The notes under the pieces are model-generated. The model did not search any database. It was given only the letters and a program-made list of their open reading frames with translations, and was not told where the DNA came from. From positions 1 to 64,000 of the forward strand of contig JAPDOI010000985.1 of NCBI GenBank assembly GCA_029168955.1: a stretch of 64,000 bases of DNA, given 5' to 3'. This DNA is from Aplectana chamaeleonis. Its lineage: Eukaryota > Nematoda > Chromadorea > Rhabditida > Cosmocercidae. Below, piece after piece: positions 5,936 through 44,808 of this stretch (position 1 is its first letter; every line of letters starts with the position of its first letter). The position numbers and the translations under genes were made by a program.

Positions 5936-6131
5936 ATTTTTGAAATAGTTTATAGAATCTTTGAAACAAATATTTTGAAGATTTCCTTTTGGATATGAGT
6001 GAATGGGTCCAGAAGACACCTGCTGTCCGATTTTCAGCCCGAATCGGTTCACAAAATAACAAAGTTGAGAGCCCGAAAGCGTAAGAAATTTTCATGGTGT
6101 TGTGCGCCGCAGGTCAAGTGAATAACCGTCA
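5936..6131. other. Spacer between LINE remnant and GGCCGT minisatellite
   Basis: Unique-looking sequence in which I see no gene, RNA or repeat. It separates the truncated 5' end of the reverse-transcriptase remnant from the minisatellite and the 42-bp satellite. Confidence 0.4.
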
Positions 6132-6240
6132 GGCCGTGGGCCGTAGACAGAAGTAGGGCCGTAGACCGTGGGCCGTAGACCGTGTCGGCCGTAGGCTGTT
6201 GGCCGTGGGCCGTAGGCCTGCGGGCCGTCAGAGAGCCGTC
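6132..6240. repeat. GGCCGT-rich minisatellite
   Basis: About 110 bp composed of imperfect short repeats of GGCCGTAGACCGTG and GGCCGTGGGCCGTAG. The array is irregular, with units of about 7-16 bp. It sits 125 bp left of the 42-bp satellite but shares no obvious unit with it. Confidence 0.7.
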
Positions 6241-6364
6241 ACGCTTTTCAGTCCTCACTGCTAATAGCCACTGCCAATGGTAGCAGGCAATGAGACTTGG
6301 CAAACAGATAAGTTGGTGGGGGTACGTAGGCTGGTAAGTAATCGATTTGGTAGGTGAGTGGGGA

Positions 6365-9300
6365 TTCTGATGGCATCATCGGGACGTCGTGAAAAAGTGC
6401 TTCTGGCTTCTGATGACGTCATCGGGACGTCGTGAAAAGTGCATCTGGCTTCTGATGACGTCATCGGGACGTCGTGAAAAGTGCATCTGGCTTCTGATGA
6501 CGTCATCGGGACGTCGTGAAAAGTGCTTCTGGCTTCTGATGACGTCATCGGGATGTCGTGAAAAGTGCTTCTGGCTTCTGATGACGTCATCGGGACGTCG
6601 TGAAAAGTGCTTCTGGCTTCTGATGACATCATCTGGACGTCGTGAAAAGTGCTTCTGGCTTCTGATGACGTCATCAGGACGTCGTGAAAGGTGCGTTTGG
6701 CTTCTGATGACGTCATCGGGACGTCGTGAAAAGTGCTTCTGGCTTCTGATGACGTCATCGGGACGTCGTGAAAAGTGCTTCTGGCTTCTGATGACGTCAT
6801 CGGGACGTCGTGAAAAGTACTTCTGGCTCCCGATGACGTCATCGGGACGTCGTGAAAAGTGCTTCTGGCTTCTGATGACGTCATCGGGACGTCGTGAAAA
6901 GTGCTTCTGGCTTCTGATGACGTCATCGGGACGTCGTGAAAAGTGCTTCTGGCTTCTGATGACGTCATCGGGACGTCGTGAAAAGTGCTTCTGGCTTCTG
7001 ATGACGTCATCGGGACGTCGTGAAAAGTGCTTCTGGCTTCTGATGACGTCATCGGGACGTCGTGAAAAGTGCATCTGGCTTCTGATGACGTCATCGGGAC
7101 GTCGTGAAAAGTGCTTCTGGCTTCTGATGACATCATCTGGACGTCGTGAAAAGTGCTTCTGGCTTCTGATGACGTCATCAGGACGTCGTGAAAAGTGCGT
7201 CTGGCTTCTGATGACGTCATCGGGACGTCGTGAAAAGTGCTTCTGGCTTCTGATGACGTCATCGGGACGTCGTGAAAAGTGCTTCTGGCTTCTGATGACG
7301 TCATCGGGACGTCGTGAAAAGTGCTTCTGGCTTCTGATGACGTCATCGGGACGTCGTGAAAAGTGCTTCTGGCTTCTGATGACGTCATCGGGACGTCGTG
7401 AAAAGTGCTTCTGGCTTCTGATGACGTCATCGGGACGTCGTGAAAGTGCATCTGGCTTCTGATGACGTCATCGGGACGTCGTGAAAAGTGCTTCTGGCTT
7501 CTGATGACGTCATCGGGACGTCGTGAAAAGTGCTTCTGGCTTCTGATGACGTCATCGGGACGTCGTGAAAAGTGCTTCTGGCTTCTGATGACGTCATCGG
7601 GACGTCGTGAAAAGTGCTTCTGGCTTCCGATGACGTCATCGGGACGTCGTGAAAAGTGCATCTGGCTTCTGATGACGTCATCGGGACGTCGTGAAAAGTG
7701 CTTCTGGCTTCCGATGACGTCATCGGGACGTCGTGAAAAGTGCTTCTGGCTTCTGATGACGTCATCGGGACGTCGTGAAAAGTGCTTCTGGCTTCTGATG
7801 ACGTCATCGGGACGTCGTGAAAAGTGCTTCTGGCTTCTGATGACGTCATCGGGACGTCGTGAAAAGTGCTTCTGGCTTCTGATGACGTCATCGGGACGTC
7901 GTGAAAAGTGCTTCTGGCTTCTGATGACGTCATCGGGACGTCGTGAAAAGTGCTTCTGGCTTCTGATGACGTCATCGGGACGTCGTGAAAAGTGCTTCTG
8001 GCTTCTGATGACGTCATCGGGACGTCGTGAAAAGTGCTTCTGGCTTCTGATGACGTCATCGGGACGTCGTGAAAAGTGCTTCTGGCTTCTGATGACGTCA
8101 TCGGGACGTCGTGAAAAGTGCTTCTGGCTTCTGATGACGTCATCGTGACGTCGTGAAAAGTACATCTGGCTTCTGATGACGTCATCGGGACGTCGTGAAA
8201 AGTGCTTCTGGCTTCTGATGACGTCATCGGGACGTCGTGAAAAGTGCTTCTGGCTTCTGATGACGTCATCGGGACGTCGTGAAAAGTGCTTCTGGCTTCT
8301 GATGACGTCATCGGGACGTCGTGAAAAGTGCTTCTGGCTTCTGATGACGTCATCGGGACGTCGCAAAAAGTGCTTCTGGCTTCTGATGACGTCATCGGGA
8401 CGTCGTGAAAAGTGCTTCTGGCTTCTGATGACGTCATCGGGACGTCGTGAAAAGTGCTTCTGGCTTCTGATGACGTCATCGGGACGTCGTGAAAAGTGCT
8501 TCTGGCTTCTGATGACGTCATCGGGACGTCGTGAAAAGTGCATCTGGCTTCTGATGACGTCATCGGGACGTCGTGAAAAGTGCTTCTGGCTTCCGATGAC
8601 GTCATCGTGACGTCGTGAAAAGTGCTTCTGGCTTCTGATGACGTCATCGGGACGTCGTGAAAAGTGCTTCTGGCTTCTGATGACGTCATCGGGACGTCGT
8701 GAAAAGTGCTTCTGGCTTCTGATGACGTCATCGGGACGTCGTGAAAAGTGCTTCTGGCTTCTGATGACGTCATCGGGACGTCGTGAAAAGTGCTTCTGGC
8801 TTCTGATGACGTCATCGGGACGTCGTGAAAAGTGCTTCTGGCTTCTGATGACGTCATCGGGACGTCGTGAAAAGTGCTTCTGGCTTCTGATGACGTCATC
8901 GGGACGTCGTGAAAAGTGCTTCTGGCTTCTGATGACGTCATCGGGACGTCGTGAAAAGTGCTTCTGGCTTCTGATGACGTCATCGGGACGTTGTGAAAAG
9001 TGCTTCTGGCTTCTGATGACGTCATCGGGACGTCGTGAAAAGTGCTTCTGGCTTGTGGAGACGGCACCGGGGCGTAGCGAAAAGTGCGTCTGGCTTCTGA
9101 TGACGTCATCGGGACGTCGTGAAAAAGTGCTTCTGGCTTCTGATGAAGTCATCGGGACGTCGTGAAAAGTGCTTCTGGCTTCTGATGACGTCATCGGGAC
9201 GTCGTGAAAAGTGCATCTGGCTTCTGATGACGTCATCGGGACGTCGTGAAAAGTGCTTCTGGCTTCTGATGACGTCATCGGGACGTCGTGAAAAGTGCTT

Positions 9301-12300
9301 CTGGCTTCTGATGACGTCATCGGGACGTCGTGAAAAGTGCTTCTGGCTTCTGATGACGTCATCGGGACGTCGTGAAAAGTGCTTCTGGCTTCCGATGACG
9401 TCATCGGGACGTCGTGAAAAGTACATCTGGCTTCTGATGACGTCATCGGGACGTCGTGAAAAGTGCTTCTGGCTTCTGATGACGTCATCGGGACGTCGTG
9501 AAAAGTGCTTCTGGCTTCTGATGACGTCATCGGGACGTCGTGAAAAGTGCTTCTGGCTTCTGATGACGTCATCGGGACGTCGTGAAAAGTGCTTCTGGCT
9601 TCTGATGACGTCATCGGGACGTCGTGAAAAGTGCATCTGGCTTCTGATGACGTCATCGGGACGTCGTGAAAAGTGCTTCTGGCTTCTGATGACGTCATCG
9701 GGACGTCGTGAAAAGTGCTTCTGGCTTCTGATGACGTCATCGGGACGTCGTGAAAAGTGCTTCTGGCTTCTGATGACGTCATCGGGACGTCGTGAAAAGT
9801 GCATCTGGCTTCTGATGACGTCATCGGGACGTCGTGAAAAGTGCTTCTGGCTTCCGATGACGTCATCGGGACGTCGTGAAAAGTGCTTCTGGCTTCTGAT
9901 GACGTCATCGGGACGTCGTGAAAAGTGCTTCTGGCTTCTGATGACGTCATCGGGACGTCGTGAAAAGTGCTTCTGGCTTCTGATGACGTCATCGGGACGT
10001 CGTGAAAAGTGCATCTGGCTTCTGATGACGTCATCGGGACGTCGTGAAAGAGTGCTTCTGGCTTCTGATGACGTCATCGGGACGTCGTAGAAAGTGCTTC
10101 TGGCTTCTGATGACGTCATCGGGACGTCGTGAAAAGTGCTTCTGGCTTCTGATGACGTCATCGGGACGTCGTGAAAAGTGCTTCTGGCTTCTGATGACGT
10201 CATCGGGACGTCGTGAAAAGTGCTTCTGGCTTCCGATGACGTCATCGGGACGTCGTGAAAAGTGCTTCTGGCTTCTGATGACGTCATCGGGACGTCGTGA
10301 AAAGTGCTTCTGGCTTCTGATGACGTCATCGGGACGTCGTGAAAAGTGCATCTGGCTTCTGATGACGTCATCGGGACGTCGTGAAAAGTGCTTCTGGCTT
10401 CTGATGACGTCATCGGGACGTCGTGAAAAGTGCTTCTGGCTTCTGATGACGTCATCGGGACGTCGTGAAAAGTACATCTGGCTTCTGATGACGTCATCGG
10501 GACGTCGTGAAAAGTGCTTCTGGCTTCTGATGACGTCATCGGGACGTCGTGAAAAGTGCTTCTGGCTTCTGATGACGTCATCGGGACGTCGTGAAAAGTG
10601 CTTCTGGCTTCCGATGACGTCATCGTGACGTCGTGAAAAGTACATCTGGCTTCTGATGACGTCATCGGGACGTCGTGAAAAGTGCTTCTGGCTTCTGATG
10701 ACGTCATCGGGACGTCGTGAAAAGTGCTTCTGGCTTCTGATGACGTCATCGGGACGTCGTGAAAAGTGCTTCTGGCTTCTGATGACGTCATCGGGACGTC
10801 GTGAAAAGTGCTTCTGGCTTCTGATGACGTCATCGGGACGTCGTGAAAAGTGCTTCTGGCTTCTGATGACGTCATCGGGACGTCGTGAAAAGTGCTTCTG
10901 GCTTCTGATGACGTCATCGGGACGTCGTGAAAAGTGCTTCTGGCTTCTGATGACGTCATCGGGACGTCGCGAAAAGTGCTTCTGGCTTCTGATGACGTCA
11001 TCGGGACGTCGTGAAAAGTGCTTCTGGCTTCTGATGACGTCATCGGGACGTCGTGAAAAGTGCTTCTGGCTTCTGATGACGTCATCGGGACGTCGTGAAA
11101 AGTGCTTCTGGCTTCTGATGACGTCATCGGGACGTCGTGAAAAGTGCTTCTGGCTTCTGATGACGTCATCGGGACGTCGTGAAAAGTGCTTCTGGCTTCT
11201 GATGACGTCATCGGGACGTCGTGAAAAGTGCTTCTGGCTTCCGATGACGTCATCGGGACGTCGTGAAAAGTGCTTCTGGCTTCTGATGACGTCATCGGGA
11301 CGTCGTGAAAAGTGCTTCTGGCTTCTGATGACGTCATCGGGACGTCGTGAAAAGTGCTTCTGGCTTCTGATGACGTCATCGGGACGTCGTGAAAAGTGCT
11401 TCTGGCTTCTGATGACGTCATCGGGACGTCGTGAAAAGTGCTTCTGGCTTCTGATGACGTCATCGGGACGTCGTGAAAAGTGCTTCTGGCTTCTGATGAC
11501 GTCATCGGGACGTCGTGAAAAGTGCTTCTGGCTTCTGATGACGTCATCGGGACGTCGTGAAAAGTGCTTCTGGCTTCTGATGACGTCATCGGGACGTCGT
11601 GAAAAGTGCTTCTGGCTTCTGATGACGTCATCGGGACGTCGTGAAAAGTGCTTCTGGCTTCTGATGACGTCATCGGGACGTCGTGAAAAGTGCATCTGGC
11701 TTCTGATGACGTCATCGGGACGTCGTGAAAAGTGCTTCTGGCTTCCGATGACGTCATCGGGACGTCGTGAAAAGTGCTTCTGGCTTCTGATGACGTCATC
11801 GGGACGTCGTGAAAAGTGCTTCTGGCTTCCGATGACGTCATCGGGACGTCGTGAAAAGTGCATCTGGCTTCTGATGACGTCATCGGGACGTCGTGAAAAG
11901 TGCTTCTGGCTTCTGATGACGTCATCGGGACGTCGTGAAAAGTGCTTCTGGCTTCCGATGACGTCATCGCGACGTCGTGAAAAGTGCATCTGGCTTCTGA
12001 TGACGTCATCGGGACGTCGTGAAAAGTGCTTCTGGCTTCTGATGACGTCATCGGGACGTCGTGAAAAGTACATCTGGCTTCTGATGACGTCATCGGGACG
12101 TCGTGAAAAGTGCTTCTGGCTTCTGATGACGTCATCGGGACGTCGTGAAAAGTGCTTCTGGCTTCTGATGACGTCATCGGGACGTCGTGAAAAGTGCTTC
12201 TGGCTTCTGATGACGTCATCGGGACGTCGTGAAAAGTACTTCTGGCTTCCGATGACGTCATCGGGACGTCGTGAAAAGTGCTTCTGGCTTCTGATGACGT

Positions 12301-15300
12301 CATCGGGACGTCGTGAAAAGTGCTTCTGGCTTCTGATGACGTCATCGGGACGTCGTGAAAAGTGCTTCTGGCTTCTGATGACGTCATCGGGACGTCGTGA
12401 AAAGTGCTTCTGGCTTCTGATGACGTCATCGGGACGTCGTGAAAAGTGCTTCTGGCTTCTGATGACGTCATCGGGACGTCGTGAAAAGTGCTTCTGGCTT
12501 CTGATGACGTCATCGGGACGTCGTGAAAAGTGCTTCTGGCTTCTGATGACGTCATCGGGACGTCGTGAAAAGTGCTTCTGGCTTCTGATGACGTCATCGG
12601 GACGTCGTGAAAAGTGCTTCTGGCTTCTGATGACGTCATCGGGACGTCGTGAAAAGTGCTTCTGGCTTCTGATGACGTCATCGGGACGTCGTGAAAAGTA
12701 CTTCTGGCTTCCGATGACGTCATCGGGACGTCGTGAAAGTGCTTCTGGCTTCTGATGACGTCATCGGGACGTCGTGAAAAGTGCTTCTGGCTTCTGATGA
12801 CGTCATCGGGACGTCGTGAAAAGTGCATCTGGCTTCTGATGACGTCATCGGGACGTCGTGAAAAGTGCTTCTGGCTTCTGATGACGTCATCGGGACGTCG
12901 TGAAAAGTGCTTCTGGCTTCTGATGACGTCATCGGGACGTCGTGAAAAGTGCTTCTGGCTTCTGATGACGTCATCGGGACGTCGTGAAAAGTGCTTCTGG
13001 CTTCCGATGACGTCATCGGGACGTCGTGAAAAGTGCTTCTGGCTTCTGATGACGTCATCGGGACGTCGTGAAAAGTGCATCTGGCTTCTGATGACGTCAT
13101 CGGGACGTCGTGAAAAGTGCTTCTGGCTTCTGATGACGTCATCGGGACGTCGTGAAAAGTGCTTCTGGCTTCCGATGACGTCATCGTGACGTCGTGAAAG
13201 TGCTTCTGGCTTCTGATGACGTCATCGGGACGTCGTGAAAAGTGCTTCTGGCTTCTGATGACGTCATCGGGACGTCGTGAAAGTGCTTCTGGCTTCTGAT
13301 GACGTCATCGGGACGTCGTGAAAAGTGCATCTGGCTTCCTGATGACGTCATCGGGACGTCGTGAAAAGTGCTTCTGGCTTCTGCTGACGTCATCGGGACG
13401 TCGTGAAAAGTGCTTCTGGCTTCTGATGACGTCATCGGGACGTCGTGAAAAGTGCTTCTGGCTTCTGATGACGTCATCGGGACGTCGTGAAAAGTGCTTC
13501 TGGCTTCTGATGACGTCATCGGGACGTCGTGAAAAGTGCTTCTGGCTTCTGATGACGTCATCGGGACGTCGTGAAAAGTGCTTCTGGCTTCTGATGACGT
13601 CATCGGGACGTCGTGAAAAGTGCTTCTGGCTTCTGATGACGTCATCGGGACGTCGTGAAAAGTGCTTCTGGCTTCTGATGACGTCATCGGGACGTCGTGA
13701 AAAGTGCTTCTGGCTTCTGATGACGTCATCGGGACGTCGTGAAAAGTGCTTCTGGCTTCTGATGACGTCATCGGGACGTCGTGAAAAGTACTTCTGGCTT
13801 CCGATGACGTCATCGGGACGTCGTGAAAAGTGCTTCTGGCTTCTGATGACGTCATCGGGACGTCGTGAAAAGTGCTTCTGGCTTCTGATGACGTCATCGG
13901 GACGTCGTGAAAAGTGCTTCTGGCTTCTGATGACGTCATCGGGACGTCGTGAAAAGTGCTTCTGGCTTCTGATGACGTCATCGGGACGTCGTGAAAAGTG
14001 CTTCTGGCTTCTGATGACGTCATCGGGACGTCGTGAAAAGTGCTTCTGGCTTCTGATGACGTCATCGGGACGTCGTAGAAATTGCTTCTGGCTTCTGATG
14101 ACGTCATCAGGACGTCGTGAAAAGTGCTTCTGGCTTCTGATGACGTCATCGGGACGTCGTAAAAAGTGCTTCTGGCTTCTGATGACGTCATCGGGACTTC
14201 GTGAAAAGTGCTTCTGGCTTCTGATGACGTCATCGGGACTTCGTGAAAAGTGCTTCTGGCTTCTGATGACGTCATCGGGACGTCGTGAAAAGTGCTTCTG
14301 GCTTCTGATGACGTCATCGGGACGTCGTGAAAAGTGCTTCTGGCTTCTGATGACGTCATCGGGACGTCGTGAAAAGTGCTTCTGGCTTCTGATGACGTCA
14401 TCGGGACGTCGTGAAAAGTGCTTCTGGCTTCTGATGACGTCATCGGGACGTCGTGAAAAGTGCTTCTGGCTTCTGATGACGTCATCGGGACGTCGTGAAA
14501 AGTGCTTCTGGCGTCTGATGACGTCATCGGGACGTCGTGAAAAGTGCTTCTGGCTTCTGATGACGTCATCGGGACGTCGTGAAAAGTACATCTGGCTTCT
14601 GATGACGTCATCGGGACATCGTGAAAAGTGCTTCTGGCTTCTGATGACGTCATCGGGACGTCGTGAAAAGTGCTTCTGGCTTCTGATGACGTCATCGGGA
14701 CGTCGTGAAAAGTGCTTCTGGCTTCTGATGACGTCATCGGGACGTCGTGAAAAGTGCATCTGGCTTCTGATGACGTCATCGGGACGTCGTGAAAAGTGCT
14801 TCTGGCTTCTGATGACGTCATCGGGACGTCGTGAAAAGTGCTTCTGGCTTCTGATGACGTCATCGGGACGTCGTGAAAAGTGCTTCTGGCTTCTGATGAC
14901 GTCATCGGGACGTCGTGAAAAGTGCTTCTGGCTTCTGATGACGTCATCGGGACGTCGTGAAAAGTGCTTCTGGCTTCTGATGACGTCATCGGGACGTCGT
15001 GAAAAGTGCTTCTGGCTTCTGATGACGTCATCGGGACGTCGTGAAAAGTGCTTCTGGCTTCTGATGACGTCATCGGGACGTCGTGAAAAGTGCTTCTGGC
15101 TTCTGATGACGTCATCGGGACGTCGTGAAAAGTGCTTCTGGCTTCCGATGACGTCATCGGGACGTCGTGAAAAGTGCATCTGGCTTCTGATGACGTCATC
15201 GGGACGTCGTGAAAAGTGCTTCTGGCTTCTGATGACGTCATCGGGACGGCGTGGAAAGGACATCTGGCTTCTGATGACGTCATCGGGACGTCGTGAAAAG

Positions 15301-27300: not shown

Positions 27301-30300
27301 TCATCGGGACGTCGTGAAAAGTGCTTCTGGCTTCTGATGACGTCATCGGGACGTCGTGAAAAGTGCTTCTGGCTTCTGATGACGTCATCGGGACGTCGTG
27401 AAAAGTGCTTCTGGCTTCTGATGACGTCATCGGGACGTCGTGAAAAGTGCTTCTGGCTTCTGATGACGTCATCGGGACGTCGTGAAAAGTGCTTCTGGCT
27501 TCTGATGACGTCATCGGGACGTCGTGAAAAGTGCTTCTGGCTTCTGATGACGTCATCGGGACGTCGTGAAAAGTGCTTCTGGCTTCTGATGACGTCATCG
27601 GGACGTCGTGAAAAGTGCTTCTGGCTTCTGATGACGTCATCGGGACGTCGTGAAAAGTGCTTCTGGCTTCTGATGACGTCATCGGGACGTCGTGAAAAGT
27701 ACATCTGGCTTCTGATGACGTCATCGGGACGTCGTGAAAAGTGCTTCTGGCTTCTGATGACGTCATCGGGACGTCGTGAAAAGTGCTTCTGGCTTCTGAT
27801 GACGTCATCGGGACGTCGTGAAAAGTGCTTCTGGCTTCTGATGACGTCATCGGGACGTCGTGAAAAGTGCTTCTGGCTTCTGATGACGTCATCGGGACGT
27901 CGTGAAAAGTGCTTCTGGCTTCTGATGACGTCATCGGGACGTCGTGAAAAGTGCTTCTGGCTTCTGATGACGTCATCGGGACGTCGTGAAAAGTGCTTCT
28001 GGCTTCTGATGACGTCATCGGGACGTCGTGAAAAGTGCTTCTGGCTTCTGATGACGTCATCGGGACGTCGTGAAAAGTGCTTCTGGCTTCTGATGACGTC
28101 ATCGGGACGTCGTGAAAAGTGCTTCTGGCTTCTGATGACGTCATCGGGACGTCGTGAAAAGTGCATCTGGCTTCTGATGACGTCATCGGGACGTCGTGAA
28201 AAGTGCTTCTGGCTTCTGATGACGTCATCGGGACGTCGTGAAAAGTGCTTCTGGCTTCTGATGACGTCATCGGGACGTCGTGAAAAGTGCTTCTGGCTTC
28301 TGATGACGTCATCGGGACGTCGTGAAAAGTGCTTCTGGCTTCTGATGACGTCATCGGGACGTCGTGAAAAGTGCTTCTGGCTTCTGATGACGTCATCGGG
28401 ACGTCGTGAAAAGTGCTTCTGGCTTCTGATGACGTCATCGGGACGTCGTGAAAAGTGCTTCTGGCTTCTGATGACGTCATCGGGACGTCGTGAAAAGTGC
28501 TTCTGGCTTCTGATGACGTCATCGGGACGTCGTGAAAAGTGCTTCTGGCTTCTGATGACGTCATCGGGACGTCGTGAAAAGTGCTTCTGGCTTCTGATGA
28601 CGTCATCGGGACGTCGTGAAAGTGCTTCTGGCTTCTGATGACGTCATCGGGACGTCGTGAAAAGTGCTTCTGGCTTCTGATGACGTCATCGGGACGTCGT
28701 GAAAAGTGCTTCTGGCTTCCGATGACGTCATCGGGACGTCGTGAAAAGTGCATCTGGCTTCTGATGACGTCATCGGGACGTCGTGAAAAGTGCTTCTGGC
28801 TTCTGATGACGTCATCGGGACGTCGTGAAAAGTGCATCTGGCTTCTGATGACGTCATCGGGACGTCGTGAAAAGTGCTTCTGGCTTCTGATGACGTCATC
28901 GGGACGTCGTGAAAAGTGCTTCTGGCTTCTGATGACGTCATCGGGACGTCGTGAAAAGTGCTTCTGGCTTCTGATGACGTCATCGGGACGTCGTGAAAAG
29001 TGCTTCTGGCTTCTGATGACGTCATCGGGACGTCGTGAAAAGTGCTTCTGGCTTCTGATGACGTCATCGGGACGTCGTGAAAAGTGCTTCTGGCTTCTGA
29101 TGACGTCATCGGGACGTCGTGAAAAGTGCTTCTGGCTTCTGATGACGTCATCGGGACGTCGTGAAAAGTACTTCTGGCTCCCGATGACGTCATCGGGACG
29201 TCGTGAAAAGTGCTTCTGGCTTCTGATGACGTCATCGGGACGTCGTCGAACGGGCTTCTGGCTTCTGATGACGTCATCGGGACGTCGTGAAAAGTGCTTC
29301 TGGCTTCTGATGACGTCATCGGGACGTCGTGAAAAGTGCTTCTGGCTTCTGATGACGTCATCGGGACGTCGTGAAAAGTGCTTCTGGCTTCTGATGACGT
29401 CATCGGGACGTCGTGAAAAGTACTTCTGGCTCCCGATGACGTCATCGGGACGTCGTGAAAAGTGCTTCTGGCTTCTGATGACGTCATCGGGACGTCGTGA
29501 AAAGTGCTTCTGGCTTCTGATGACGTCATCGGGACGTCGTGAAAAGTGCTTCTGGCTTCTGATGACGTCATCGGGACGTCGTGAAAAGTGCTTCTGGCTT
29601 CTGATGACGTCATCGGGACGTCGTGAAAAGTGCTTCTGGCTTCTGATGACGTCATCGGGACGTCGTGAAAAGTGCTTCTGGCTTCTGATGACGTCATCGG
29701 GACGTCGTGAAAAGTGCTTCTGGCTTCTGATGACGTCATCGGGACGTCGTGAAAAGTGCTTCTGGCTTCTGATGACGTCATCGGGACGTCGTGAAAAGTG
29801 CTTCTGGCTTCTGATGACGTCATCGGGACGTCGTGAAAAGTGCTTCTGGCTTCCGATGACGTCATCGGGACGTCGTGAAAAGTGCATCTGGCTTCTGATG
29901 ACGTCACCGGGACGTCGTGAAAAGTGCTTCTGCCTTCTGATGACGTCATCGGGACGTCGTGAAAAGTGCGTCTGGCTTCTGATGACGTCATCGGGACGTC
30001 GTGAAACGTGCTTCTGGCTTCTGATGACGTCATCGGGACGTCGTGAAAAGTGCTTCTGGCTTCTGATGACGTCATCGAGACGTCGTGAAAAGTGCTTCTG
30101 GCTTCTGATGACGTGATCAGGACGGCGGGAGAAGTGCGTCTGGCTTCTGATGACGTCATCGGGACGTCGTGAAAAGTGCTTCTGGCTTCTGATGACGTCA
30201 TCGGGACGTCGTGAAAAGTGCTTCTGGCTTCTGATGACGTCATCGGGACGTCGTGAAAAGTACTTCTGGCTTCCGATGACGTCATCGGGACGTCGTGAAA

Positions 30301-31850
30301 AGTGCTTCTGGCTTCTGATGACGTCATCGGGACGTCGTGAAAAGTGCTTCTGGCTTCTGATGACGTCATCGGGACGTCGTGAAAAGTGCTTCTGGCTTCT
30401 GATGACGTCATCGGGACGTCGTGAAAAGTGCTTCTGGCTTCTGATGACGTCATCGGGACGTCGTGAAAAGTGCTTCTGGCTTCTGATGACGTCATCGGGA
30501 CGTCGTGAAAAGTGCTTCTGGCTTCTGATGACGTCATCGGGATGTCGTGAAAAGTGCTTCTGGCTTCTGATGACGTCATCGGGACGTCGTGAAAGTGCTT
30601 CTGGCTTCTGATGACGTCATCGGGACGTCGTGAAAAGTGCTTCTGGCTTCTGATGACGTCATCGGGACGTCGTGAAAAGTGCTTCTGGCTTCTGATGACG
30701 TCATCGGGACGTCGTGAAAGTGCTTCTGGCTTCTGATGACGTCATCGGGACGTCGTGAAAAGTGCTTCTGGCTTCTGATGACGTCATCGGGACGTCGTGA
30801 AAAGTGCTTCTGGCTTCTGATGACGTCATCGGGACGTCGTGAAAAGTGCTTCTGGCTTCTGATGACGTCATCGGGACGTCGTGAAAAGTGCTTCTGGCTT
30901 CTGATGACGTCATCGGGACGTCGTGAAAAGTGCTTCTGGCTTCTGATGACGTCATCGGGACGTCGTGAAAAGTACTTCTGGCTTCCGATGACGTCATCGG
31001 GACGTCGTGAAAAGTGCTTCTGGCTTCTGATGACGTCATCGGGACGTCGTGAAAAGTGCTTCTGGCTTCTGATGACGTCATCGGGACGTCGTGAAAAGTG
31101 CTTCTGGCTTCTGATGACGTCATCGGGACGTCGTGAAAAGTGCTTCTGGCTTCTGATGACGTCATCGGGACGTCGTGAAAAGTACTTCTGGCTTCCGATG
31201 ACGTCATCGGGACGTCGTGAAAAGTGTTTCTGGCTTCTGATGACGTCATCGGGACCCCGTGAAAAGTGCTTCTGGCTTCTGATGACGTCATCGAGTCGTC
31301 GTGAAAAGTGCTTCTGGCTTCTGATGACGTCATCGGGACGTCGTGAAAAGTGCTTCTGGCTTCTGATGACGTCATCGGGACGTCGTGAAAAGTGCTTCTG
31401 GCTTCCGATGACGTCATCGGGACGTCGTGAAAAGTGCTTCTGGCTTCTGATGACGTCATCGGGACGTCGTGAAAAGTGCTTCTGGATTCTGATGACGTCA
31501 TCGGGGCGTCGTGAAAAGCGCTTCTGGCTTCTGATGACGTCATCGGGACGTCGTGAAAAGTGCTTCTGGCTTCTGACGACGTCATCGGGACGTCGTGAAG
31601 TGCTTCTGGCTTCTGATGACGTCATCGGGACGTCGTGAAAAGTGCTTCTGGCTTCTGATGACGTCATCGGGACGTCGTGAAAAGTGCTTCTGGCTTCTGA
31701 TGACGTCATCGGGACGTCGTGAAAAGTGCTTCTGGCTTCTGATGACGTCATCGGGACGTCGTGAAAAGTACTTCGGGCTTCCGATGACGTCATCGGGACG
31801 TCGTGAAAAGTGCTTCGGGCTTCCGATGACGTCATCGGGACGTCGTGAAA
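6365..31850. repeat. Satellite block A, highly homogeneous
   Basis: About 600 units, most of them identical or one to two substitutions from consensus. Each standard unit has two ACGT-core palindromes: TGACGTCA and, 11 bp further on, GGACGTCG. Homogeneity is highest in the interior (for example 26200-28600, dozens of consecutive near-identical units). Diverged units cluster at both margins (6600-6720, 29880-30150, 31250-31860). This pattern fits homogenisation by unequal exchange or replication slippage. Some 17 units are 41 bp through loss of one A after GTCGTGA, and one junction at 25008-25028 is only 20 bp. Confidence 0.9.
6622..7210. repeat. 12-unit (504-bp) segmental duplication at left edge of block A
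   Basis: An unusual variant pair, GATGACATCATCTGG followed one unit later by CATCAGGACGTCGTGAAA(A/G)GTGCG, occurs at 6622 and again at 7126, exactly 504 bp (12 x 42) apart. Sharing two rare variants in the same order marks a duplicated multi-unit block rather than independent mutation. Confidence 0.65.
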
Positions 31851-32640
31851 AGTTCCTGGTTGCTTCTGATGACGTCATCGGGATGTCGTGGAAAGTGCCT
31901 CGGGCTTCTGATGACGTCATCAGGACGTCGTGAAAAGTACATCTGGCTTCTGATGACGTCATCGGGACGTCGTGAAAAGTGCTTCTGGCTTCTGATGACG
32001 TCATCGGGACGTCGTGAAAAGTACATCTGGCTTCTGATGACGTCATCGGGACGTCGTGAAAAGTGCTTCTGGCTTCTGATGACGTCATCGGGACGTCGTG
32101 AAAAGTACATCTGGCTTCTGATGACGTCATCGGGGCGTCGTGTAAAGTGCTTCTGGCTTCTTATGACGTCATCGGGACGTCGTGAAAAGTACATAGGACA
32201 TCTGATGACGTCATCGGGACGTCGTGAAAAGTGCATGGGGCTTCTGATGACGTCATCGGGACGTCGTGTAAAGTGCATAGGGCTTCTGATGACGTCATCG
32301 GGACGTCGTGAAAAGTACATCTGGCATCTGATGACGTCATCGGGACGTCGTGAAAGTGCTTCTGGCATCTGATGACGTCATCGGGACGTCGTGAAAAGTA
32401 CATCTGGCTTCTGATGACGTCATCAGGACGTCGTGAAAAGTATATAGGGCTTCTGATGACGTCATCGGGACGTCGTGTAAAGTGCTTCTGGCTTCTGATG
32501 ACGTCATCGGGACGTCGTGAAAGTACATCTGGCATCTGATGACGTCATCGGGATGTCGTGTAAAGTACATAGGGCTTCTGATGACGTCATCGGGACGTCG
32601 TGTAAAGTACACAGAGCATCTGATGACGTCATCAGGACGT
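31850..32640. repeat. Hybrid zone between satellite blocks A and B
   Basis: Units here combine the A-type half (CATCGGGACGTCGTGAAAAG) with B-type features such as TACATAGG, GCATAGGG, GCATGGGG and GTGTAAAG. Two 41-bp units lie near 32353 and 32518, and an irregular unit with AGTTCCTGGTTGC lies near 31850. The gradual mixture indicates that A and B are relatives within one array rather than two satellites joined by a breakpoint. Confidence 0.75.
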
Positions 32641-32650
32641 CGTGAAAAGT

Positions 32651-34160
32651 GGACAGAGTATCTGATGACGTCATCAGGATGTCGTATAAAGTAGACAGAG
32701 CATCTGATGACGTCATCAGGATGTCGTGTAAAGTACATAGGGCATCTGATAACTTCATCAGGATGACGTGTAAAGTACATAGGGCATCTGATGACGCCAT
32801 CAGGATGACGTGTAAAGTATATAGGGCATCTGATGACGCCATTAGGATGTCGTGTAAAGCACACAGGGCATCTGATGACGTCATCAGGATGTCATGTAAA
32901 GTACATAGGGCATCTGATGACGTCATCAGGATGTCGAGTAAAGTACATAGGACATCTGATGACGCCGATAGGATGTCGTGTAAAGTACATGGGGCATCTG
33001 GTGACGTCATCAGGATGACGTGTAAAGTACATAGGGCATCTGATGACGCCATTAGGATGTCGTGTAAAGTACATAGGGCATCTGTTGACGTCATCAGGAT
33101 GTCGTGTAAAGTACATAGGGCATCTGATGACTTCATCAGGATGACGTGTAAAGTACATAGGGCATCTGCTGACGTCATCAGGATGATGTGTAAAGTATAT
33201 AGGGCATCTGATGACGCCATTAGGATGTCGTGTAAAGTACATAGGGCATCTTATGACGTCATCAGGATGTCATGTAAAGTACATAGGGCATCTGATGACG
33301 CCATCAGGATGTAGTGTAAAGTACATAGGGCATCTGTTGACGTCATCAGGATGACGTGTAAAGTACACAGAGCATCTGATGACGTCATCAGGATGTCGTG
33401 TAAAGTGGACAGAGTATCTGATGACGTCATCAGGATGTCGTATAAAGTAGACAGAGCATCTGATGACGTCATCAGGATGTCGTGTAAAGTACATAGGGCA
33501 TCTGATAACTTCATCAGGATGACGTGTAAAGTACATAGGGCATCTGATGACGCCATCAGGATGACGTGTAAAGTATATAGGGCATCTGATGACGCCATTA
33601 GGATGTCGTGTAAAGCACACAGGGCATCTGATGACGTCATCAGGATGTCATGTAAAGTACATAGGGCATCTGATGACGTCATCAGGATGTCATGTAAAGT
33701 ACATGGGGCATCTGATGACGCCATCAGGATGTCGTGTCAAGTACATAGGGCATCTTATGACGTCATCAGGATGTCGAGTAAAGTACATAGGACATCTGAT
33801 GACGCCGATAGGATGTCGTGTAAAGTACATAGGGCATCTGATGACGCCATCAGGATGTCGTGTAAAGTACATAGGGCATCTTATGACGTCATCAGGATGT
33901 CGAGTAAAGTACATGGGACATCTGATGACGCCGATAGGATGTCGTGTAAAGTACATAGGGCATCTGATGACGCCATCAGGATGTCGTGTAAAGTACATAG
34001 GGCATCTTATGACGTCATCAGGATGTCGAGTAAAGTACATAGGACATCTGATGACGCCGATAGGATGTCGTGTAAAGTACATAGGGCATCTGATGACGCC
34101 ATCAAGATGTCGTGTAAAGTACATAGGGCATCTGATGACGCCATCAGGATGACGTGTAAA
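32651..34160. repeat. 756-bp (18-unit) higher-order repeat in block B
   Basis: The ordered series of variants GGACAGAGTA, CGTATAAAGTAGACAGAG, GATAACTTCATC, GACGCCATCAGG and GACGCCATTAGG begins at 32651 and again at 33407, exactly 18 units apart. A third partial instance starts at 35969, 61 units further on. Boundaries are approximate because later units diverge. Confidence 0.65.
33751..34128. repeat. Three tandem copies of a 126-bp trimer (3 x 42) in block B
   Basis: The ordered triplet of unit variants CATCTTATGACGTC with GTCGAGTAAAG, GACGCCGATAGG, and GACGCCATCAGG starts at 33751, 33877 and 34003. Copies are nearly identical, differing for example by CATAGG versus CATGGG. This is a local amplification of a three-unit block. 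Confidence 0.8.
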
Positions 34161-34926
34161 GTATATAGGGCACCTGATGACGTCATCAGGATGTCGTGTA
34201 AAGCACACAGAGCATCTGATGACGTCATCAGGATGTCGTGTAAAGTAGACAGAGCATCTGATGACGTCATCAGGATGTCGTGTAAAGCACACAGAGCATC
34301 TGATGACGTCAGCAGGATGTCGTGTAAAGTAGACAGAGTATCTGATGACGTCATCAGGATGACGTGTAAAGTATATAGGGCATCTGATGACGCCATTAGG
34401 ATGTCGTGTAAAGTACATAGGGCATCGGTTGACGTCATCAGGATGACGTGTAAAGTACACAGAGCATCTGATGACGTCATCAGGATGTCGTGTAAAGTGG
34501 ACAGAGTATCTGATGACGTCATCAGGATGTCGTGTAAAGCACACAGAGCATCTGATGACGTCAGCAGAATGTCGTGTAAAGTAGACAGAGTATCTGATGA
34601 CGTCATCAGGATGACGTGTGAAGTACATAGGGCATCTGATGACTCCAATAGGATGTCGTGTAAAGTGCATAGGGCATCGGTTGACGTCATCAGGATGTCA
34701 TGTAAAGCACACAGGGCATCTGATGACGTCATCAGGATGTCGTGTAAAGTACATAGGGCATCTGATGACGTCATCAGGATGTCGAGTAAAATACATAGGG
34801 CATCTGATGACTTCATCAGGATGACATGTAAAGTACATAGGGCATCTGATGACGCCATCAGGATGACGTGTAAAGTATATAGGGCATCTGATGACGCCAT
34901 TAGGATGTCGTGTAAAGTACATAGGG

Positions 34927-35430
34927 CATCTTATGACGTCATCAGGATGTCGAGTAAAGTACATAGGACATCTGATGACGCCGATAGGATGTCGTGTAAA
35001 GTACATGGGGCATCTGATGACGTCATCAGGATGACGTGTAAAGTACATAGGGCATCTGATGACGTCATCAGGATGTCGAGTAAAATACATAGGGCATCGG
35101 TTGACGTCATCAGGATGACGTGTAAAGTACATAGGGCATCTGATGACGCCAATAGGATGTCGTGTAAAGTACATAGGGCATCTTATGACGTCATCAGGAT
35201 GTCGAGTAAAGTACATAGGACATCTGATGACGCCGATAGGATGTCGTGTAAAGTACATGGGGCATCTGATGACGTCATCAGGATGACGTGTAAAGTACAT
35301 AGGGCATCTGATGACGTCATCAGGATGTCGAGTAAAATACATAGGGCATCTGATGACTTCATCAGGATGACATGTAAAGTACATAGGGCATCTGATGACG
35401 CCATCAGGATGACGTGTAAAGTATATAGGG
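34927..35430. repeat. 252-bp (6-unit) duplicated block in block B
   Basis: The variant series starting CATCTTATGACGTC, GTCGAGTAAAG, GACGCCGATAGG, TACATGGGGC occurs at 34927 and again at 35179. The first four to five units of the two blocks match in order before diverging. Confidence 0.6.
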
Positions 35431-37450
35431 CATCTGATGACGCCATTAGGATGTCGTGTAAAGTACATAGGGCATCTTATGACGTCATCAGGATGTCATG
35501 TAAAGTACATAGGGCATCTGATGACGCCATCAGGATGTCGTGTAAAGTACATAGGGCATCGGTTGACGTCATCAGGATGACGTGTAAAGTACATAGGGCA
35601 TCTGATGACGCCAATAGGATGTCGTGTAAAGTACATAGGGCATCTTATGACGTCATCAGGATGTCGTGTAAAGTACATAGGGCATCTGATGACTTCATCA
35701 GGATGACGTGTAAAGTACATAGGGCATCTGCTGACGTCATCAGGATGATGTGTAAAGTATATAGGGCATCTGATGACGCCATTAGGATGTCGTGTAAAGT
35801 ACATAGGGCATCTTATGACGTCATCAGGATGTCATGTAAAGTACATAGGGCATCTGATGACGCCATCAGGATGTAGTGTAAAGTACATAGGGCATCTGTT
35901 GACGTCATCAGGATGACGTGTAAAGTACACAGAGCATCTGATGACGTCATCAGGATGTCGTGTAAAGTGGACAGAGTATCTGATGACGTCATCAGGATGT
36001 CGTATAAAGTAGACAGAGCATCTGATGACGTCATCAGTATGTCGTGTAAAGTACATAGGGCATCTTATAACTTCATCAGGATGACGTGTAAAGTACATAG
36101 GGCATCTGATGACGCCATCAGGATGACGTGTAAAGTATATAGGGCACCTGATGACGCCATTAGGATGTCGTGTAAAGTACATAGGACATCTTATGACGTC
36201 ATCAGGATGTCGTGTAAAGCACACAGGGCATCTGATGACGTCATCAGGATGTCGTGTAAAGCACACAGAGCATCTGATGACGTCATCAGGATGTCGTGTA
36301 AAGCACACAGAGCATCTGATGACGTCATCAGGATGTCGTGTAAAGTAGACAGAGCATCTGATGACGTCATCAGGATGTCGTGTAAAGTAGACAGAGCATC
36401 TGATGACGTCATAAGGTTGTCTTGTAAAGCACACAGGGCATCTGATGACGTCATCAGGATGTCGTGTAAAGTAGACAGAGTATCTGATGACGTCATCAGG
36501 ATGTCGTATAAAGTAGACAGAGCATCTGATGACGTCATCAGGATGTCGTGTAAAGCACACAGAGCATCTGATGACGTCAGCAGGATGTCGTGTAAAGTAG
36601 ACAGAGTATCTGATGACGTTATCAGGATGTCGTATAAAGTAGACAGAGCATCTGATGACGTCATCAGGATGTCGTGTAAAGTACATAGGGGATCTGATGA
36701 CGTCATCAGGATGTCGTGTAAAGTAGGCATAGCATCTGATGACGTCATCAGGATGTCGTGTAAAGTAGACAGAGCATCTGATGACGTCATCAGGATGTCG
36801 TGTAAAGTAGACAGAGCATCTGATGACGTCATCAGGATGTCGTGTAAAGCACACAGGGCATCTGATGACGTCATCAGGATGTCGTGTAAAGCACACAGGG
36901 CCTCTGGTGACGTCATCAGGATGTCGTGTAAAGCACACAGAGCATCTGATGACGTCATCAGGATGTCGTGTAAAGTAGACAGAGCATCTGATGACGTCAT
37001 CAGGATGTCGTGTAAAGTAGACAGAGCATCTGATGGCGTCATCAGGATGACGTGTAAAGTACATAGGGCATCTGATGACGCCGATAGGATGTCGTGTAAA
37101 GTACATGGGGCATCTGATGACGTCATCAGGATGACGTGTAAAGTACATAGGGCATCTGATGACGCCATTAGGATGTCGTGTAAAGTACATAGGGCATCTG
37201 TTGACGTCATCAGGATGTCGTGTAAAGTACATAGGGCATCTGATGACTTCATCAGGATGACGTGTAAAGTACATGGGCATCTGATGACGTCATCAGGATG
37301 TCACGTAAAGTACATAGGGCATCTGATGACGCCATCAGGATGTAGTGTAAAGTACATAGGGCATCTGTTGACGTCATCAGGATGACGCCATCAGGATGTA
37401 GTGTAAAGTACATAGGGCATCTGTTGACGTCATCAGGATGACGTGTAAAG

Positions 37451-38710
37451 TACACAGAGCATCTGATGACGTCATCAGGATGTCGTGTAAAGTGGACAGA
37501 GTATCTGATGACGTCATCAGGATGTCGTGTAAAGTACATAGGGCATCTGATAACTTCATCAGGATGACGTGTAAAGTACATAGGGCATCTGATGACGCCA
37601 TCAGGATGACGTGTAAAGTATATAGGGCATCTGATGACGTCATCAGGATGTCGTGTAAAGTAGACAGAGCATCTGATGACGTCATCAGGTTGTCTTGTAA
37701 AGCACACAGGGCATCTGATGACGTCATCAGGATGTCGTGTAAAGCACACAGAGCATCTGATGACGTCATCAGGATGTCGTGTAAAGTAGACAGAGTATCT
37801 GATGACGTCATCAGAATGTCGTATAAAGTAGACAGAGCATCTGATGACGTCATCAGGATGTCGTGTAAAGCACACAGAGCATCTGATGACGTCAGCAGGA
37901 TGTCGTGTAAAGTAGACAGAGTATCTGATGACGTCATCAGGATGTCGTATAAAGTAGACAGAGCATCTGATGAAGTCATCAGGATGTCGTGTAAAGTACA
38001 TAGGGCATCTGATGACGTCATCAGGATGTCGTGTAAAGTAGACAGAGCATCTGATGACGTCATCAGGATGTCGTATAAAGTACACAGAGCATCTGATGAC
38101 GTCATCAGGATGTCGTGTAAAGTGGACAGAGTATCTGATGACGTCATCAGGATGTCGTGTAAAGTACATAGGGCATCTGATAACTTCATCAGGATGACGT
38201 GTAAAGTACATAGGGCATCTGATGACGCCATCAGGATGACGTGTAAAGTATATAGGGCATCTGATGACGTCATCAGGATGTCGTGTAAAGTAGACAGAGC
38301 ATCTGATGACGTCATCAGGTTGTCTTGTAAAGCACACAGGGCATCTGATGACGTCATCAGGATGTCGTGTAAAGCACACAGAGCATCTGATGACGTCATC
38401 AGGATGTCGTGTAAAGTAGACAGAGTATCTGATGACGTCATCAGAATGTCGTATAAAGTAGACAGAGCATCTGATGACGTCATCAGGATGTCGTGTAAAG
38501 CACACAGAGCATCTGATGACGTCAGCAGGATGTCGTGTAAAGTAGACAGAGTATCTGATGACGTCATCAGGATGTCGTATAAAGTAGACAGAGCATCTGA
38601 TGACGTCATCAGGATGTCGTGTAAAGTACATAGGGCATCTGATGACGTCATCAGGATGTCGTGTAAAGTAGACAGAGCATCTGATGACGTCATCAGGATG
38701 TCGTGTAAAG
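37451..38710. repeat. Two tandem copies of a 630-bp (15-unit) higher-order repeat
   Basis: Diagnostic variants recur exactly 630 bp apart: TACACAGAGC at 37451 and 38081, CAGGTTGTCTTGTAAAG near 37687 and 38317, and TCAGAATGTCG at 37811 and 38441. The copies differ at very few positions, for example GATGAAGTCATC near 37970 against GATGACGTCATC. This is the longest clean higher-order repeat I can follow and it lies against the right edge of the satellite. Confidence 0.85.
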
Positions 38711-38962
38711 TAGACAGAGCATCTGATGACGTCATCAGCATGTCGTGTAAAGTAGACAGAGCATCTGATGACGTCATCAGGATGTCGTGTAAAGCACACA
38801 GGGCATCTGATGACGTCATCAGGATGTCGTGTAAAGCACACAGAGCATCTGATGACGTCATCAGGATGTCGTGTAAAGTAGACAGAGCATCTGATGACGT
38901 CATCAGGATGTCGTGTAGAGTAGGCAGAGCATCTGATGGCGTCATCAGGACGTCGTAAAGTG

Positions 38963-39104
38963 AGTCGTGCGTCACTTGTAGCGTGCGGAACATGTCAATT
39001 ACTTTTGATTATCATAGGAATCCATGCTATTGGAAAAATATTGAAGATTTTCCAGGGATATTCCTTCATATTATCAAGAAAAAGTGAACAATGCTATTAA
39101 AATA
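38963..39104. other. Right flank of the satellite
   Basis: The periodicity stops after ACGTCGTAAAGTG and gives way to AT-rich sequence with no recognisable feature. Confidence 0.5.
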
Positions 39105-39686
39105 GGGTCTTTCAAGAGAAAGAGGTTTGGTTGACATCAGAAACGTTTCAACAAAAAGGGAACAATAGGCAAGTAGGCTGAGGAGAGTCTAAAAAGATTG
39201 AGCAGTATTTTCTGAGGCTGAATTTTTTTAGCCGATACTTCTTAACAGCGAAAACAAACCACTGTGACATTTCATAAGGAAAAGTTCAATGGTTTCCAAA
39301 AATGGACTTCTATTCGTTGACGAGATTATAAGAAAATACTCTTATTTGATGCTACACTTTGGGTTCGCTTCTCGTAGCAGCTGGAGCTAGCCGTCTGTGT
39401 AGGTAAGGTTGACATCATTTTCTCTTCCAATGATAACTAATAAGTTAACATAAATATACATTTTTATCGTAACTCCCATAATCGGAGTCTATTTGGAACC
39501 GCAAAAGCCTTCCGTGTAAAACGCCGCAACGGTCTATTTTTGCTGCTAAGAAGTATAGGCCAAGAAAGTCAGTCTCAGAGAATATTGTTCAATTTTTGTA
39601 GACTCTGCTCATCCTACTTGCCTATTGTTCCTTTTCTGTTGGAGCGTTTCTGACGCCAACCAAACCTCTTCCGCTTGAAAGGCCCC
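39105..39686. mobile_element. Fold-back element with arms of about 150 bp
   Basis: The left arm (about 39105-39256) is matched in reverse complement by the right arm (about 39530-39686). Shared blocks include AAGAGGTTTGGTTG, AGGAACAATAGGCAAGTAGG in the right-arm complement, AGAGTCTA and ATACTTCTTA. Arm identity by eye is roughly 80-85 percent. The centre (39257-39529) is AT-rich and encodes nothing recognisable. The structure fits a non-autonomous DNA transposon with long terminal inverted repeats. Confidence 0.75.
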
Positions 39687-44071: not shown

Positions 44072-44415
44072 GGAAGTGCAACTTGACGTGGGCGTGATTT
44101 TGAAGTGTCACTGCTAGGAAGGCTACTTTACCTAGAAAAACCACCACTGTTGCGGATGAGGATTTACTTCATACAACTGCGCAATTATAAAACTGCCAGA
44201 AGCAAAGAATACCGCATCTACGCCAAACAGAAAAGCAAAAACAACTCCTGGACCATCTCAATCAGCGAAGAAGACAGGTAGCGGTAGAAGGGTTCAATTA
44301 AAGAATGATGTTGACGACAACATAGGTGTGCACAGATTTTGATGTGTCTGAGTTTTTAATGCTTTTTCTCCGGTATATATTATCACAAAATTGCTGAGTT
44401 GATTACAAAACTTAG

Positions 44416-44486
44416 GTGTCAGGCAGGAATCGAACCCGCATTGCATTGCTTACCGGGCGAGAATGTTACCATTACACTACCGACAC
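44416..44486 (-). pseudogene. tRNA-like sequence, left arm copy
   Basis: On the minus strand a 71-nt cloverleaf is largely formed. The acceptor stem is GTGTCGG with CTGACAC (one G-U pair). The D arm is GTGT with ACAT around AATGGTA. The T arm is GCGGG with CCTGC around TTCGATT, so box B reads GGTTCGATTCC. The anticodon stem is damaged (CTCGC against GCAAT, only three pairs) and position 33 is C instead of U in the loop CCGGTAA, whose formal anticodon would be GGT. That damage argues for a tRNA-derived pseudogene or SINE head rather than a working tRNA. Confidence 0.55.
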
Positions 44487-44707
44487 CCCGCTCTGCATTC
44501 CTCAGCTATTCACACAAGGACTGTGTAGGCACAACAGCAATCACCCGTCAACGGGTATGATCTGGTAAGCACAAATCGGCATTAAATCCAGTTAAGCTAA
44601 GGCCTTTTGAAGACAATTTTTGATGCTTTTGAGTATCATACCAGTTAACGGGTGATTGTTGTTCTGCCTAAACAGTCCATGTGTGAGTCTGAGGAATGCA
44701 GGGTGGG

Positions 44708-44778: not shown

Positions 44779-44808
44779 CTACATAAGTTTTGTATTCAAG
44801 TCAGCAAC

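Follow-up and report, generated by a model that had tools for sequence, protein, structure and literature searches.

A 42-bp satellite of CREB/ATF-type palindromes lies within a dispersed mobile element in the nematode Aplectana chamaeleonis

Introduction

Canonical Helitrons are moved by a Rep/helicase. They begin with 5'-TC, insert between A and T without a clear duplication of the target, and finish with a CTRR 3' end that has a short terminal hairpin just inside it. Foldback elements carry long terminal inverted repeats. Mobile DNA can also distribute binding sites for transcription factors, among them the bZIPs ZIP-3, ATF-7, ZIP-11 and ATF-5. More than 10% of the motifs of these four factors in Caenorhabditis elegans lie in regions derived from transposable elements, and the authors speculate on decoys (PMC8896005). 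The rolling-circle element HelitronY4_CE is described as carrying more than 100 heat-shock elements in eight copies (PMC6927752), and some Tyba repeats of Rhynchospora are stated to be linked with a Helitron (PMC10048060); all three statements come from excerpts of the papers concerned.

Here we examine a 42-bp satellite built around the palindrome TGACGTCA; a narrow literature search for this word together with satellite or tandem repeat found nothing related. We show that the array forms the interior of a mobile element present in dispersed copies, with a hairpin module on its 5' side and an inverted-repeat module on its 3' side; this placement changes the likely cause of the satellite's spread.

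Results

Hundreds of palindromes in a 42-bp array

The window, by which we mean the whole 64,000-nucleotide stretch of contig JAPDOI010000985.1 that was analysed, contains 777 units of 42 bp in tandem at 6365-38956, or about 32 kb. The features of the locus are as follows; L numbers denote other loci.

5872..39698, + strand: whole mobile element, about 33.8 kb, from ends common to dispersed copies and from junctions
5872..6113, + strand: 5' module, A-subfamily type, with decayed terminal hairpin; 82% to L036 over 242 bp, 89.7% to L042
6126..6228, + strand: GGCCGTA-type minisatellite; L036, L041 and L042 carry similar repeats after the 5' module and before the array
6365..31820, + strand: A-type 42-bp units, consensus TTCTGATGACGTCATCGGGACGTCGTGAAAAGTGCTTCTGGC, about 99% alike
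31821..32617, + strand: switch zone of alternating A, mixed and B units, with approximate limits
32618..38956, + strand: B-type 42-bp units, consensus ATCTGATGACGTCATCAGGATGTCGTGTAAAGTACATAGGGC, about 76% to the A consensus
38957..39092, + strand: conserved stretch from array to 3' inverted repeat, 82.6% to L035
39096..39281, + strand: long inverted repeat of the 3' module, left arm, with 80.1% complementarity to its right counterpart
39286..39494, + strand: loop region of the 3' module, 91.9% to L035
39510..39694, + strand: right arm of the 3' inverted repeat, up to the element end, B-subfamily type, from arm pairing and locus comparison

An earlier note on this DNA had claimed hundreds of CREB/ATF-type palindromes, present in nearly all A units and many B units, and the counts agree. 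Of the 719 copies of TGACGTCA in the window, 718 lie inside the array; 100 shuffles of the window give roughly three (2.93 +/- 1.65). An exact copy is found in 717 of the 777 units: 588 of 597 A-type and 101 of 150 B-type, with 29 transition units and one end unit outside both sets. The palindrome, given in the note as 12 to 16 bp, is exactly 12 bp at 565 of the 718 sites and 16 bp at 105. The B-type block contains duplicated runs of up to 12 units each. We place the switch from A to B at about 31.8-32.6 kb; Tandem Repeats Finder put the split at 25,018 instead. With its long head-to-tail array and high-copy unit (about 228,200 pattern matches genome-wide), the repeat is satellite DNA.

Two other readings were rejected. 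A coding repeat is suggested by a unit length divisible by three and by long open frames on both strands, yet with 14 codons three open frames out of six are expected by chance; the frames are interrupted by single-base indels, and most A-to-B differences change amino acids (frames read by eye). As for a viral or prokaryotic origin, neither the unit nor the 5' end has an exact match in IMG/VR, nor the unit in GTDB contigs. In the flanks we found no sign of cellular genes: ten of the 89 ORFs of at least 75 codons gave no Pfam match at E 0.01, and for one of the ten neither protein relatives nor a viral-contig relative was found.

The array is the inside of a mobile element

The earlier note read the array as a plain satellite. 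This reading falls: a 5' module, a 3' module or both accompany the array at 11 of 12 other array loci, both at eight (L037 weakly), and neither was found only at L039. Because the pattern used to pick these loci was built on the unit, the proportion of arrays that lie in elements cannot be taken as an unbiased estimate. The copies have sharp ends and flanks unrelated to each other. Between both modules lie 42-bp repeats at eight loci; L033 and L035 have 145-bp repeats. Exact 5' ends number 2609 in the assembly (1.04 Gb), and their reversed control 0. In the window the 5' boundary is CCAA|TCCGCACC, and the 3' boundary is approximate.

At the 5' junction all nine copies read A|T, with a terminal TC in eight and TT in L031; at the 3' side ...GA(A)|T is seen in seven of eight copies, with an end in ...GATAGA(A) in six of eight and other variants in L041 and the window copy. 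An empty site shows the insertion: the joined flanks of L041 match L033:1215-2073 at 95.7% over 861 bp, the target being GGTGCGATA|TCATATTAG. This clean site corresponds to insertion between A and T, and a 2-bp AT duplication fits it equally well. A second empty site (L035 versus L044, 68%) is weak. A longer target duplication was rejected, as a possible ATTGTA repeat in the flanks of L031 is absent from the other copies read.

Like canonical Helitrons, the element has 5'-TC and A|T insertion, and a Helitron replicase domain occurs in the genome. PF14214 has 42 matches in the assembly, some loci giving two, without a link to the element ends; it has none in 14 control genomes, apparently prokaryotes and hence a weak control. 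Unlike canonical Helitrons, the element lacks a CTRR 3' end and has a 185-bp inverted repeat there instead. No short terminal hairpin was seen at that end, and no replicase in the element copies read. The window 5' module, taken as a whole, folds no better than its shuffles (z 0.01).

An old element around a young array

How did so long an array come to lie between these ends? The 5' module of the window is 81.5-89.7% alike to A-type copies versus 72-74% to B-type copies, and its 3' arms are 82.6-87.5% alike to B-type versus 71-78% to A-type. The window copy thus combines a 5' module of the A subfamily with a 3' module of the B subfamily, and its unit types switch at one place. Some copies are harder to assign: the second arm of L036 is nearest to B-type L032 (86.8%) though the remainder of L036 is A-type, and the arms of L041 are not clearly of either subfamily. 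The ends of the window element are old, its arms being 80% complementary (versus 96% in L032 and 95% in L035), and most of the array is young, 415 of 597 A units being identical to their consensus.

The array is probably a minisatellite that has overgrown inside a non-autonomous transposon of the rolling-circle, Helitron-like type. A replicase encoded elsewhere would have spread the element; after movement stopped, two elements or arrays may have recombined inside their repeats, and unequal exchange could then have swelled the array to 32 kb. Less certainly, the TGACGTCA palindrome might have been kept by a bound factor, most likely a bZIP of the CREB/ATF type, or for its palindromic structure, and its huge copy number may in turn titrate that putative factor.

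Is the core preferentially kept?

The earlier note had suggested that the core of block A is preserved where other bases vary, and had offered as refutation a core that varies as much as the rest. Across arrays the core shows less variation than the other positions. Taken by itself, block A gives no significant difference (p 0.13) and block B a borderline one (p 0.05). Positions 5-14 (GATGACGTCA) are the same in the consensus of all 14 sets (12 loci and the two window blocks, with L031, L035 and L039 contributing only 2-3 full units each) while other positions differ. Distinct variants per core position are 0.67 of those at the rest (bootstrap over sets 0.46-0.86). Ranked by low variability, the core window comes first in six of the 14 sets, 31st of 42 in L036 and 34th of 42 in L037. 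Genome-wide, 83.5% of units have an intact core versus 39.4% for a control 8-mer, counts in which units are not independent and large homogenised arrays dominate; among the 12 loci, L032 and L042 largely determine the control figure. In these comparisons the core is better retained than the other positions of the unit.

Homogenisation from a few source arrays, element-borne or those of an ordinary satellite, could leave the core intact as a by-product, with no selection at all. The dependence among units and the weight of large homogenised arrays just noted speak for such a process, and we hold it to be a real possibility, if on balance doubtful. It sits poorly with a block of ten positions that is invariant in all 14 consensuses amid differing neighbours, and with a bootstrap over sets that excludes a ratio of 1.

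Structure or binding?

The palindrome might instead be kept because a cruciform or hairpin serves the element when it replicates or recombines, rather than because a host factor binds it. The conserved block GATGACGTCATC is a palindrome in its own right, and the palindrome reaches 16 bp at the sites counted above; 5 of 200 shuffles of the A unit and 12 of 200 of the B unit fold as well, and consensus copies of the element ends form hairpins. As a single strand, however, one unit folds weakly (-6.3 kcal/mol for A, -4.5 for B), and the best A-unit fold pairs the core with a second ACGTC motif, not core with core. We judge this explanation rather unlikely.

Rather doubtful, too, is the proposal that the array was selected as a platform for a putative CREB/ATF bZIP, a factor sink or a chromatin nucleator, with the element merely its carrier. 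The optimal site is present and preferentially kept across arrays, and the assembly holds 349,376 copies of TGACGTCA, 17 times more than of its reversed control. About 65% of these lie in the 42-bp unit, as counted by pattern search (a DNA search with an 84-base unit query gave none, probably because common words are skipped), and with so large a share in one repeat a bZIP factor sink is conceivable. The excerpted C. elegans work on bZIP motifs and decoys (PMC8896005) points the same way. Against it stand the non-significant conservation in block A alone, the 49 of 150 B units without an exact core, and the loss of helical phase.

The earlier note had placed all sites on one helix face across 32 kb. 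This could not be borne out. Consecutive sites of the window array are 42 bp apart in 654 of 717 intervals and off-register in 28 of 717, and coherence at 10.5 bp over all its sites is only 0.18, so the long-range helical argument fails. In eight other arrays coherence ranges from 0.19 to 0.96, and L040 is out of register at 26 of its 55 intervals. Phasing at four helical turns holds locally only.

Discussion

The locus displays a satellite arising from a transposon with intermediates still visible: carrier ends, an empty site, a subfamily chimera in one array, and an old carrier round a young array. Since most TGACGTCA sites of the assembly sit in one repeat, one can also ask here whether a transcription factor is regulated differently when transposons carry arrays of its site.

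A bolder extension, unlikely as a whole, is that a rolling-circle-type transposon packaged a CREB/ATF palindrome whose core would be kept because it is bound, the dispersed arrays forming a genome-wide bZIP sink as well as stress- or signal-responsive enhancers. If so, most optimal CRE sites (about 228,200 of 349,376) would have been placed by a transposon that first moved and then swelled into satellite, a CRE counterpart of the heat-shock Helitrons. That the units are those of a repeat-based holocentromere, spread by a Helitron-like carrier like Tyba in Rhynchospora, is very improbable, although the arrays are dispersed, at about one exact 5' end per 400 kb (from copy number and genome size only), and the excerpted report of Helitron-linked Tyba (PMC10048060) offers an analogy.

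Comparison with known systems

Our favoured reading, an overgrown minisatellite in a Helitron-like element, has relatives at several distances. Tetris, a foldback transposon of Drosophila virilis, is reportedly a mobile element whose parts became satellite; foldback elements have long terminal inverted repeats, whereas here a long inverted repeat exists on the 3' side only.

The nearest precedents are the oyster HINEs and the heat-shock-site Helitrons of Caenorhabditis. According to excerpts of their report, the latter are rolling-circle elements with many copies of one transcription-factor site, as here, and HSF-1 binding to their heat-shock elements was established by ChIP (PMC6927752); our one element carries 718 CRE-type palindromes as putative binding sites. 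With HINEs and DINE-1, Helentron-associated non-autonomous elements that include Cg_HINE of the Pacific oyster, the element shares, as far as the excerpted accounts go, an apparent lack of coding capacity, a 5' inverted repeat, a candidate short inverted motif at both ends (here AGAGGTTTGGTT towards the 5' end with its complement towards the 3' end, spotted by eye), a minisatellite, central tandem repeats and high copy number (PMC4067079, PMC7492417). In the same excerpts HINEs differ in their T-rich or TT target (A|T here), in a 3' palindrome of 5-10 bp (a 185-bp inverted repeat here) and in repeat units of mostly 140-180 bp (42 bp here). The longest array given in the excerpted oyster study has 29.3 units (PMC7492417) and that in an excerpted review about 90; the array described here has 777.

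Modules flanking the array

We compared the window with 12 other 42-bp array loci of the same assembly (L031-L042). These are every cluster formed by the first 100 unit-pattern matches listed, all of them on contig C1 or C2. Aligning the array flanks by BLAST reveals a common module on either side (~260 bp upstream, ~700 bp downstream), constant in order and orientation; beyond the modules, the flanks of the copies are unrelated. Both modules are present at L031, L033, L034, L035, L036, L037 (weakly), L040 (second arm incomplete) and L041. A single module was found at L032, where the array extends to the locus edge, at L042, where it runs off, and at L038 (weakly), and neither was found by BLAST of the flanks of L039. 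Judging from these alignments, the 42-bp array is element-borne.

The 5' end of the element starts with TCGCTCCAGCCGCGAAGCGGCTGGAG, a 10-bp hairpin (z -4.9), followed in several copies by a GGCCGTA minisatellite. This terminal hairpin has decayed in the window copy, whose entire 5' module has no folding advantage over shuffles (z 0.01). The 3' module includes a pair of inverted arms, each about 185 bp long, with the second at the element's end. Complementarity between the arms is 80% in the window, against 96% in L032 and 95% in L035; the L032 3' module folds with a z of -26.9 against 20 shuffles. Units and modules fall into two subfamilies, A-type and B-type, and in two B-type copies a further, 145-bp minisatellite separates the 5' module from the 42-bp array (L033:4261-4704, L035:4390-6516).

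Insertion, copy number and replicase

Where does the element insert? When the flanks of L041 are joined, they align across the junction to L033:1215-2073 (861 bp, 95.7% identity). At the occupied site the sequence is GGTGCGATA|TCGCTCC ... ACAGAA|TCATATTAG, and at the empty site it is GGTGCGATATCATATTAG; the element went in between A and T, with either no target duplication or a 2-bp AT duplication. A weak match between L035 and L044 (68%) is a second candidate and follows the same rule. All nine 5' junctions are A|T; at the 3' side the ending GA(A)|T is shared by seven of the eight junctions, all but that of the window copy.

The exact 5' 25-mer occurs 1321 + 1288 times in the assembly and its reversed control 0 times. 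The Helitron replicase domain PF14214 has 42 matches there, two each at some loci and several within long open frames, and none in 14 control genomes, which appear to be prokaryotes. It is plausible that the element has its replicase partner among these loci. Matches on contigs C61, C1733 and C1345 of the assembly (G000) lie in uninterrupted frames of 2174-3351 codons.

A chimeric copy in the window

In the window copy, the 5' module is closest to the A-type copies (81.5-89.7% identity, against 72-74% for L033 and L035). The 3' arms show the opposite affinity: identity is 82.6-87.5% with L032, L033 and L035 and 71-78% with the A-type copies. The units match the modules: A-type units adjoin the 5' end and B-type units the 3' end, and about 20 units at the boundary are mixed or alternate in type. 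Elsewhere, L031, L034 and L040 are A throughout, and L033 and L035 B throughout. The simplest reading is that the join between the two subfamilies took place within the array; subfamily typing is not clean everywhere, because the second 3' arm of L036 is nearest B-type L032 (86.8%) and the L041 arms fit neither type clearly. L036, A-type in its other parts, is perhaps another mixed copy.

The array and its palindromic core

Features of the window array
6365-38956, 42-bp tandem array (Tandem Repeats Finder, two main rows)
before 31,400, A-type units, n=597 (unit alignment)
between A-type and B-type units, transition units, n=29 (unit alignment)
from 32,618, B-type units, n=150 (unit alignment)
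counted apart from these three classes, end unit, n=1 (unit alignment)

Unit-by-unit alignment of the window array yields 777 units. Tandem Repeats Finder breaks the array at 25,018; since identity to the A consensus remains high in the unit alignment up to about 31.5 kb, this split is not a biological border. The dense array of CREB/ATF-type palindromes described in the earlier note is borne out: 588 of 597 A-type units, 101 of 150 B-type units and 717 of all 777 units have the exact core, TGACGTCA. The word occurs 719 times in the window (718 within the array) versus 2.93 in the shuffled window. The palindrome is 12 bp long at 565 of the 718 array sites and 16 bp at 105.

A 12-unit run at 37461-37964 recurs identically at 38091-38594 (lag 15 units, 630 bp), and shorter repeated runs in block B, at lags of 61, 18, 13 and 6 units, point to segmental duplication inside the block.

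Forty-two base pairs are four helical turns at 10.5 bp, and the sites had been proposed to be phased across 32 kb. Locally the phasing holds, 654 of 717 core-to-core intervals being exactly 42 bp. It fails across 32 kb, where 28 of 717 intervals are off-register and 10.5-bp coherence over the whole array is 0.18. Coherence in other arrays is 0.96 (L036), 0.90 (L032), 0.82 (L041), 0.50 (L042), 0.47 (L037), 0.41 (L034), 0.20 (L040, with 26 of 55 intervals off-register) and 0.19 (L038). Local phasing is a trivial outcome of tandem copying.

Is the core kept more than the rest of the unit, as the earlier note suggested? Across 14 sets (the 12 loci, three with only 2-3 full units, and two window blocks) it is: the core has 6.75 distinct variants per position versus 10.1 elsewhere (p 0.0004; rank 1 of 42 windows), a ratio of 0.67 (bootstrap over sets 0.46-0.86). 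Against positions 15-27, which share the core's ascertainment, the ratio is 0.67 (0.50-0.88), and the consensus of positions 5-14 is invariant across the sets. Taken individually, just 6 of the 14 sets place the core window first; in L036 and L037 it is 31st and 34th of 42. On their own, the window blocks give a difference that is not significant in A and borderline in B: substitution is 0.0034 in the core versus 0.0134 elsewhere in block A (medians 0.0034 versus 0.0050; p 0.13) and 0.046 versus 0.103 in block B (p 0.05; rank 15 of 42).

Genome-wide, the unit pattern has 89,837 matches with positions 5-27 fixed, 107,623 with the core open (core intact in 83.5%) and 228,200 with positions 18-25 open (control segment, one position allowing two letters, intact in 39.4%). 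The counterparts are 628/638 and 628/659 in the window, and 118/143 and 118/291 in the 12 loci, the last driven by L032 and L042; these ratios are descriptive, because units of one array are not independent.

The window lies on contig C2073 of the assembly (1.037 Gb, 2087 contigs), in which TGACGTCA occurs at 349,376 places and the reversed word at 20,142. Sixty-five percent of the TGACGTCA places (228,200 matches) sit in the 42-bp unit, with slight double counting, since 3 of 947 such sites in a sample of loci plus the window were counted on both strands. Counted at 42 bp apiece, the units at these matches make up about 9.6 Mb, or 0.9% of the assembly.

Other features

44414-44487 (-), tRNA-Thr (GGT)
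44707-44780 (+), tRNA-like sequence with an odd anticodon call, ~220 bp from tRNA-Thr on the opposite strand
46242-46653, 60-bp tandem array, adjoining the next
46757-48974, 66-bp tandem array with higher-order periods of 132, 198 and 272 bp
60252-60508, AT-rich imperfect 41/82-bp repeat

Contig C1296 (L051, L052) carries a vertebrate-like mitochondrial COX1, read as frog-like, twice, 17.36 kb apart; this is probably host contamination. A COX1 fragment on another contig we take to be nematode.

Discussion

The ends of the window element are old, and 415 of 597 A units are identical to the consensus. In the model of Scalvenzi and Pollet, as outlined in PMC10048060 and also named in PMC7492417, internal repeats expand, mobility drops and a satellite results. 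The window copy, with its old ends, near-identical A units and joined subfamilies, resembles this model.

Four papers describe related features: HINEs have subterminal inverted repeats, a 3' palindrome and T-rich targets (PMC4067079); HINE-type elements in oyster bear satellite-like repeats, the longest array having 29.3 monomers (PMC7492417); some Helitrons hold >100 heat-shock elements (PMC6927752); and ZIP-3, ATF-7, ZIP-11 and ATF-5 are among the factors with >10% of motifs in TEs (PMC8896005). Canonical Helitrons have a CTRR 3' end, unlike the present element, and HINEs target TT, whereas its junction is A|T. Because one tested feature of each named family fails, we call the element non-canonical Helitron-like, without family membership. 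In how it works, it is like HINEs, the repeat-bearing oyster elements and the heat-shock Helitrons.
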